From contig BLLK01000055.1 of the NCBI GenBank assembly GCA_021927905.1, positions 1 through 64,000 on the forward strand: a DNA stretch of 64,000 bases, written 5' to 3'. This document shows positions 61,936 to 64,000 of this stretch, piece after piece. Both the position numbers and the translations under genes were made by a program. Position 1 is the stretch's first letter. Every line of letters begins with the position of its first letter. The notes beneath the pieces were generated by a model. The model was not told the DNA's origin. It worked only from the letters and a program-made list of their open reading frames with translations, and ran no database searches. The stretch comes from Chaetoceros tenuissimus (Eukaryota; Bacillariophyta; Thalassiosirophyceae; Chaetocerotales; Chaetocerotaceae).

Positions 61936-63228
61936 TCACATCTTTTGTGTAACATCGTCCACAAAGTATAGCGTGAGAGTAAATGTTCGCTCCTTCTCAT
62001 TCCAATTTGTTACAAATTTTCCTTCTTCTCTATCAATCTTTTCATTTGGAATCTTAAATGCAACAGTCTCATATGGTTCAGCCGCAATCAAAAGATATTG
62101 GTACCTTCTATCTGGTGGTGATTCTTTTCTCTGTTCAAATGCAGACATGAATCTATGACGTGGTTGACAATTAGCGTCAATCTCTGGAAAATGCAATTGG
62201 AAACTGAGACATCTTTGATTTGTTTCGTGGTGTCTTGATTTTGAAATTTCATATCCTGGTCTACCAATTTTGACACGTTGCACTGTTTTTGTTGTTGTTT
62301 GGACTGGAAGTGAAGGACCAACATCTTGTTTTCCTTGCAATTTTGCTTCCATAGCTGCTCTTCGAGCTAAACCTGCTTGGTGCTTCTTTCCCTGTGTATG
62401 AGCAAGGTAGTTTCTGTGTTTTGAAGAATCAATGTTATGTGTTGGTAAATGGAAAAGGGGAACGAAATTTATTGATCAAAGAATGACTCACCCCTCATTT
62501 GTATGCAATGTCAAACACAATTTACATTCATATGTCCCCAAATGATTTCTCATTAGGTAAGGGTCTTTTGCTAGATCGACTGTTTCAAGTGCGAGCTGTC
62601 TTAATCTTTCCTTTCTTTCTCTTTCCGACTGTTGCTCAGAGCTGACGCCACCGCCACCAAACTTTGAACCGACTCGATTCTGCCTATCAACGCCTCCTCT
62701 CATCCTCACACGTAAGGAAATATGATGCACAGTTTCTGGCGAAGGGCTCTCTGAAAACTTTTGTGTAAGATGTTCATACTCATTTCGGCCCAATACCTTC
62801 CCGTTTAGAACCACGTATGCCAAATTACTAAAGTTGACCGATGAATTTGAAAAAGAAGTAATACAACTACTGCAATTATAGTTTGATTCAGAATCAAGTT
62901 CCCCCGTTCTATTATAGCTCGCTTCTCTTGTGTGTTCATCGCAATTTTGACATGCTCTATTCTCAACATAACGATTCAAGTCTGTTCGCCGACGAACTAG
63001 TCTACCGGCTTCTTGAACCAATTTTCGATGGACACCGATGGTGAGACGGGACATTTGATAGTTCACACTTTGTGCATCATCGAACTCTCTATCTATATGT
63101 GCAGCTCTCTCTAGGAGTGAACGTAAGAAAGTGTCGTAGGATGCTGTTAATGGAATATTTGCTACGGTAGATTTCCCGCGTGGTGTTCGGAATACATAGC
63201 TTATTTGAGAACTGCTTTGAGGATCCAT
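61936..63228 (-). CDS. SF3A2: Splicing factor 3A subunit 2 with an N-terminal ubiquitin-like domain
   Basis: SF3A2 is a U2 snRNP protein needed for branch-site recognition. Exons 63228-62492 and 62413-61936 give 404 aa. From ~180 on it is canonical: DRQNRVGSKFGGGG, RERKERLRQLALETVDLAKD, YECKLCLTLHTNEG (matrin-type zinc finger), YLAHTQGKKHQAGLARRAA, VKIGRPGYEISKSR, RHRFMSAFEQRKE and YLLIAAEPYETVAFKIP. Residues 1-179 are extra: SYVFRTPRGKSTVANIPL and YDTFLRSLLERA, then after ~90 inserted residues YVVLNGKVLG and SLRVRMRGG. These read as the strands and helix of ubiquitin, ending in Gly-Gly at 178-179, just where other SF3A2 proteins begin with MDRQ. The insert holds CQNC and CSSC, a possible zinc ribbon. 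Confidence 0.95.
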
Positions 63229-63613: not shown

Positions 63614-64000
63614 CTACTTTAGATTGCCTCTAGCATAGTCACTTTCCTCAAGATGTGTCACGTGTACTACATTATTTCCAAACTGTCTTCCAGACAGTTC
63701 ATTCTTTGCGTTGAATGCATTTTCAACAGTTGCATATTCCAAAAAGATCTTTTTAATAGCAGATGAATTGACCTTATCCTATTGAACCACCAAATTGTGA
63801 GATTCAAATGAGACTCAGGGACAAATGCAGAATCGCATAGATATGTTCGAAAACGTACTTACCTTTGGATGAGGAATTTTCATACTGATTAATTGACCAA
63901 ACTTTTCACATTCCTCTCGAACTTCTTCTTTCAATCCTTCATAGTCTTCTTTAGATGCAAAGTCTTCATCAGTCACCATGTTATGGAGCACCAATATTCT
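63614..64000 (-). CDS. U2AF2: U2AF large subunit, C-terminal part
   Basis: Binds the polypyrimidine tract and SF1/SF3b at the 3' splice site. Only the end of the gene is in the window; exons 64000-63863 and 63778-63614 join in phase. RILVLHNMVTDEDFASKEDY, then VREECEKFGQLISMKIPHP and, in the last exon, KIFLEYATVENAFNAKNELS, GRQFGNNVVHVTHLEE form the third, UHM-type RRM of U2AF65. The stop follows ARGNLK. Confidence 0.92.

Follow-up and report, generated by a model that had tools for sequence, protein, structure and literature searches.

Structure of the SF3A2 locus

The window, by which we mean the whole stretch of 64,000 nucleotides of Chaetoceros tenuissimus DNA that was analysed, contains a two-exon SF3A2 gene on the minus strand at positions 63228-61936. 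Its first part is an open reading frame of 246 codons (63228..62488, minus strand), in which a long N-terminal extension and the canonical start of SF3A2 share one open frame. Exon 1 (62492..63228, minus strand) encodes extension residues 1-179 and SF3A2 residues 180-246, the last codon being completed by exon 2. The intervening intron (62414..62491, minus strand; GTGAGT...CACAG, defined by eye) is 78 nt long and interrupts codon 246 between its second and third bases; exon 2 (61936..62413, minus strand) supplies the remainder of SF3A2 and the stop codon, with the Pfam SF3A2 domain (PF16835) at 61981-62268.

The identity of the core is clear. Residues 181-246 align without gaps to residues 2-67 of human SF3A2 (70% identical, E 9.2e-26), a segment that includes the first zinc-finger Cys pair; homology resumes without a break across the 78-nt intron, between human residues 67 and 68, and exon 2 matches human SF3A2 from residue 68 on (E 3.3e-48). 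The match to PF16835 has an E-value of 9.6e-38 and 128.7 bits (cut-off 27). An initial annotation of this DNA, made from its letters, had described a single frame that joins a long N-terminal extension to canonical SF3A2, and the open reading frame and the alignment to human SF3A2 bear this out; the reading frame coordinates and the motifs that it quoted are likewise present in the sequence and its translation.

A search of the 41-Mb genome (41,027,912 bases) with PF16835 returned a single SF3A2 match. As far as the assembly shows, the cell's SF3A2 must therefore come from the fusion gene. The genome search gave no second copy of the extension or of SF3A2, the one other match to the extension having an E-value of 1.42. 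Relatives of SF3A2 were also sought in IMG/VR and GTDB by protein and alignment scans and by degenerate DNA patterns of the zinc-finger stretch: 164 stretches in IMG/VR and 38 in GTDB matched a pattern, and none was confirmed as a relative of SF3A2, these being viral and prokaryote collections that are uninformative on diatoms.

The gene directly upstream (63614-64000, minus strand) runs past the end of the window, and its upstream exon matches human U2AF 65 kDa (E 4.5e-26). The U2AF 65 kDa-like gene and SF3A2 are arranged head to tail on the same strand with approximately 385 bases between them; both factors act at the 3' end of the intron. Elsewhere in the genome two U2 snRNA genes of opposite orientation are separated by about 3 kb (G000:C44:1066549 and 1063462).

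Coding capacity of the extension

One way to gauge whether the 179-codon extension is coding is to compare it with a random model. Dinucleotide shuffles of its 537 bases contain on average 10.1 in-frame stops, and none of 20,000 shuffles was free of them. Judged by codon use, the frame of the extension is the best of the six, in a score that penalises stops in the other frames; the score itself is 0.006 bits per codon, under those of all 13 training ORFs from the window (0.042-0.303) and of the SF3A2 core (0.141). The codon periodicity of the whole extension was matched by 50 of 2,000 shuffles. On this evidence from sequence we consider the extension very probably coding and translated.

Likeness of the extension to ubiquitin

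Inspection by eye reveals several likenesses to ubiquitin: TPRGK in the place of TLTGK, a helix, LNGKVLG in the place of FAGKQLE, and VRMRGG in the place of LRLRGG. The proposed ubiquitin-like fold would have its first half in residues 8-47 (63088..63207, minus strand), with the order strand, strand, helix (FRTPRGKSTVANI..YDTFLRSLLERA), as found in both predicted structures and on an ungapped profile diagonal (both below). The second half would comprise residues 136-179 (62692..62823, minus strand; AYVVLNGKVLG ... HHISLRVRMRGG), which carry the tail diagonal of a ubiquitin-like (UBL) profile. The order of ubiquitin's strands, as originally claimed for the extension, holds only when an insert of approximately 85 residues between the two halves, which the initial annotation did not mention, is skipped.

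Profile searches give a mixed picture. Neither the ubiquitin family profile (PF00240) nor any other Pfam ubiquitin entry matched the extension, whether it was taken whole or with its halves joined. We assembled a UBL profile from 25 sequences of the same genome, namely 23 of the 30 ubiquitin-family loci plus SDE2 and SF3A1; the seven loci left out contained stops or were under 58 residues long. A gapped local test with this profile was at chance, since 2,573 of 4,000 shuffles equalled or exceeded the combined score of 19.7 (shuffle mean 20.9), as did 441 of the 519 window segments. The ungapped tests are post hoc, having been designed after the sequence was seen and the gapped test had failed, and their register was set by eye. 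They were judged against shuffles and against 7,637 stop-free 179-residue segments from all six frames of the window, the tail being anchored at the boundary.

In these ungapped tests the first half has its best diagonal at residue 9, and the tail has its own at 168-179, ending on Gly-Gly. The score of the first half was equalled by 643 of 50,000 shuffles and by 678 of the 7,637 window segments, so it is not special against the window. The 10-column beta-3 element was at chance (30,084 of 50,000 shuffles; 5,037 of 7,637 window segments), and a 20-column beta-3/beta-4 piece had its highest score in the extension away from its expected place. The post hoc score of the tail at the fixed boundary was equalled by 55 of the 50,000 shuffles, and 7 of the 7,637 segments from the window also equalled it. 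The sum over the whole architecture, also post hoc, was equalled by 7 of 50,000 shuffles but by 29 of 7,637 window segments.

A comparison by hhalign used the 23 genome UBL sequences without SDE2 and SF3A1. The extension aligned to this profile in the expected register, residues 12-34 on columns 4-26, with P 0.071, and the joined halves gave P 0.043; 31 of 600 shuffles (extension) and 33 of 600 (joined) equalled these scores, as did 59 of 822 97-mers of the window, and in an N-terminal register, with limits of our own setting, none of the 822 did. As controls, the UBL of SF3A1 gave P 4.5e-6, and the SDE2 leader, which is followed by the hallmark GGKGG, gave P 0.029, hardly better than the extension. 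The test would accordingly also miss the leader of SDE2.

Structure predictions by AlphaFold without an alignment were of low confidence (mean pLDDT 40.8 for residues 1-179 and 38.4 for residues 1-246). Both low-confidence models contain strands at 8-14 and 20-26 and a helix at 31-47/48; in neither did strands form in the second half of the proposed fold. Foldseek, with E-values up to 10 admitted, gave 674 matches for the first model and no E-value of 0.001 or below among them; ISG15 appears in the title of 28 among the best 50 of the 674 matches (one protein repeated), the best with E 0.2 and probability 0.63. With the second model ISG15 was again on top, not significantly (E 0.61, probability 0.21). 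A fold unrelated to ubiquitin, which had been named at the outset as what would speak against the idea, did not emerge, with the proviso that confidence in the models is low and that none of the fold matches reaches significance. Of the ubiquitin identity first proposed, the likeness of the tail, VRMRGG to LRLRGG, stands; the sequence tests are weak or at chance, and Pfam gives no ubiquitin match. Taking sequence and models together, we lean towards regarding the extension as a divergent beta-grasp, or ubiquitin-like, domain.

An insert with a cysteine quartet

The insert occupies residues 51-135 (62824..63078, minus strand; limits set by eye), between helix 1 and YVVLNGKVLG. We take it to be translated because its frame is free of stops (true of 86 of 20,000 shuffles), because its codon periodicity is matched by just 19 of 2,000 shuffles, and because of the arrangement of its cysteines. 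The only four Cys of the extension are found here, as C93-x2-C96 ... C119-x2-C122 (62863..62952, minus strand), a zinc-knuckle-like pattern; when four Cys were placed at random, two CxxC motifs arose in 69 of 200,000 placements. The quartet may bind zinc.

The possibility that residues 51-135 are an unspliced intron is unlikely on the same stop and periodicity counts and for want of a good donor: no site matching five or six of the six GTRAGT positions occurs before codon 134. Pfam matches to the insert were all under their cut-offs (DUF7121, E 0.012 with the whole extension and 0.03 with the insert; DUF7836, 1.3 and 0.033), and a LIM protein in the PDB matched the query with an E-value of 1.8. 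An insert of some 85 residues within a ubiquitin-like fold is unusual, and it counts against the explanation that we favour below.

The junction between extension and core

Homology to human SF3A2 begins at D181, which corresponds to human D2, so that V180 stands at the position of Met1, immediately after ISLRVRMRGG. That a Val occupies the place of the Met had been remarked from the sequence, and the human alignment agrees; equally, the observation that a ubiquitin-type tail meets the canonical start of SF3A2 proved exact, with VRMRGG (LRLRGG in ubiquitin) abutting it directly. The codon of V180 is GTT, and initiation there is for this reason unlikely. The proposed cleavage site, Gly178-Gly179 (62692..62697, minus strand), lies before Val180 and hence directly before the position of human Met1. 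In the available text of a plant survey, the motif printed MDREWGSKPGSGG... is ascribed to all but three of 83 SF3a2 sequences (PMC10049718).

A proposed precursor and the alternatives to it

The explanation that we favour, and to which we give about an even chance, is that SF3A2 is made as a precursor whose divergent ubiquitin-like leader is cut off after Gly179. The precursor would consist of a divergent ubiquitin-like domain with the CxxC...CxxC insert after its helix, then ...VRMRGG, then SF3A2 without a Met1 of its own. A ubiquitin-type protease of the USP family would cut after Gly179 and release an SF3A2 that starts Val-Asp-Arg-Gln. The USP family (PF00443) has 31 matches in the same genome, some of them fragments of one gene; the presence of USP genes, like the gene structure, the open frame, the position of the Gly-Gly and the single SF3A2 gene, is read directly from the DNA. 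A cut at the Gly-Gly itself is plausible, at odds that we put at about even from the sequence.

The structure of the spliceosome suggests why such a cut might be made. In the human spliceosome, according to the portion of the source available, the N-terminus of SF3A2 reaches into the active site, and its N-terminal domain is present in mature and late B-act complexes and not in early B-act (PMC5835773); SF3A2 and CWC24 are described, in the accessible part of a further report, as shielding the 5' splice site in B-act (PMC10208982). A folded leader at the N-terminus of SF3A2 should obstruct its entry into the active site, an obstruction that we infer, and this would be a reason for a cut at the Gly-Gly and would make removal of the leader necessary. 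By analogy with Sde2, whose own cutting licenses it, the cut may license SF3A2 for B-act spliceosomes.

A more far-reaching reading, which we hold to be possible and yet rather doubtful, is that a diatom translates a core, constitutive U2 snRNP subunit in an inactive form, its masking leader being a split ubiquitin-like domain that contains the zinc-knuckle insert. A deubiquitinase cut at the Gly-Gly would then be the licensing step that lets the SF3A2 N-terminus into the active site of the spliceosome, and splicing in its entirety would come under the control of a ubiquitin protease. Were it true, the cut would gate splicing generally, since SF3A2 both recognises the duplex of U2 and intron and extends to the 5' splice site in B-act spliceosomes; the exactness of the SF3A2 N-terminus would become explicable by test, and the Sde2 principle would have been used again on another spliceosomal protein.

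Three alternatives to cleavage deserve consideration. The one that survives best, while still unlikely, is that the extension is translated and retained as a lineage-specific N-terminal domain, of beta-grasp or other fold, which includes the zinc-knuckle insert. Such a domain would bind some component of the U2 snRNP, and the RGG would be a linker of RNA-binding type and not a cut site. The open frame of the extension and the weak ubiquitin statistics (gapped profile, hhalign shuffles) are consistent with this, and SF3a is already known to contain a UBL that stays in place, the SF3A1 of this genome having a C-terminal ubiquitin-like domain in an ORF that ends VRGR. Two considerations point the other way: the Gly-Gly directly precedes the canonical start position, and a folded domain should block the N-terminus from the active site that it is reported to enter (PMC5835773).

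The second alternative invokes two products. Met176 (62701..62703, minus strand) is an in-frame ATG four codons before Val180, with A at -3, and is a possible start of a short SF3A2 beginning MRGGVDRQ; SF3A2 would be made mainly from it, on transcripts with a downstream 5' end, and the long frame would be a minor isoform. A 14-codon upstream ORF (63245-63201, minus strand), which overlaps Met1 out of frame, may regulate how often the long start is used and could make its use rarer. Against this, 15 ATGs occur in any frame between 63614 and 62700, and 11 of them, from 63245 down to 62777 and including Met1, are upstream of Met176; ribosomes that scan from a 5' end lying above Met1 would be unlikely to get that far, and because of these 11 ATGs the short isoform would need a transcript start of its own. 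Met1, moreover, has both A at -3 and G at +4, and the 175 codons before Met176 are open. We regard this arrangement as improbable.

Least probable, by a little, is that the extension is coding and not ubiquitin-like, the GK after a strand, LNGKVLG and LRVRMRGG being coincidences drawn from a 64-kb window: the missing Pfam ubiquitin match, the gapped profile score at shuffle level and the 29 of 7,637 window segments that equal the architecture score are in its favour, and against it are the match of the tail, which falls precisely on the boundary (7 of 7,637 segments), the failure of all 822 window 97-mers to equal the hhalign score in the N-terminal register (limits author-set), and the place of ISG15 at the head of the fold comparison for both models, short of significance as it is.

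Comparison with known systems

Cleavable ubiquitin-like leaders are known from ribosomal proteins and from Sde2, a regulator of splicing at selected introns. The genome itself carries ubiquitin fusions in which ubiquitin and GG are followed by tails of ribosomal type, presumably eL40 and eS31. They resemble the SF3A2 precursor proposed here in that Gly-Gly directly precedes the mature protein; they differ in that their leaders match PF00240 strongly, whereas the SF3A2 leader does not match it. There is also a small family of diverged ubiquitin fusions in the genome (G000:C48, C32, C18 and C34), with several substituted copies, each followed by a basic tail of GGGKK type. Algal ubiquitin fusions are the subject of PMC6332867, in the main text of which, so far as available, the terms 'splicing' and 'SF3A' are absent.

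The closest parallel is Sde2. According to the accessible sections of the respective reports, Ubp5 and Ubp15 cut away the UBL of Sde2 at GG-K, a removal that is necessary for function (PMC9508853), and human SDE2 is cut at its diglycine despite a tail that reads PRLCGG (PMC5131917). As in Sde2 and SDE2, a spliceosomal protein would here carry an N-terminal ubiquitin-like leader ending in Gly-Gly. The differences lie in the cargo, which here is a constitutive U2 snRNP subunit; in the residue after the Gly-Gly, which is Val in place of the conserved Lys of Sde2's GG-K; and in the insert of about 85 residues with CxxC...CxxC in the SF3A2 leader. No Pfam match to the SDE2 domain was found in the SF3A2 fusion, which with its GG-V in place of GG-K does not belong to the Sde2 family proper. 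A separate SDE2 gene is present in the genome (G000:C34:3706144), with a leader, GGKGG and an SDE2 domain; the same gene (G000:C34:3704644-3707826) also encodes a SPRY domain (E 6.3e-25), which follows the SDE2 domain and precedes the SDE2 C-terminal domain. The profile Sde2_N_Ubi_yeast (PF13019) had no match in the genome and missed even the SDE2 gene, so it is powerless here.

A further comparison is with SF3A1, which has a ubiquitin-like domain within the same SF3a complex. There the domain is C-terminal, whereas in SF3A2 it would be an N-terminal leader. The C-terminal ubiquitin-family match of the genome's SF3A1 has an E-value of 0.00056 and 20.1 bits, under the cut-off of 25.4. Since SF3A1 retains a ubiquitin-like domain of its own, the leader of SF3A2 is an addition and not a swap. 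The idea that the leader is a displaced ubiquitin-like domain of SDE2 or SF3A1 was rejected, both genes being present with their own.

Judged by title and the start of the abstract, none of the matches listed in a search of the open-licence literature was a publication on a ubiquitin-like leader of SF3A2. By comparison with these systems, the leader would most likely add a new variant to the known principle of Sde2 and the ribosomal fusions.
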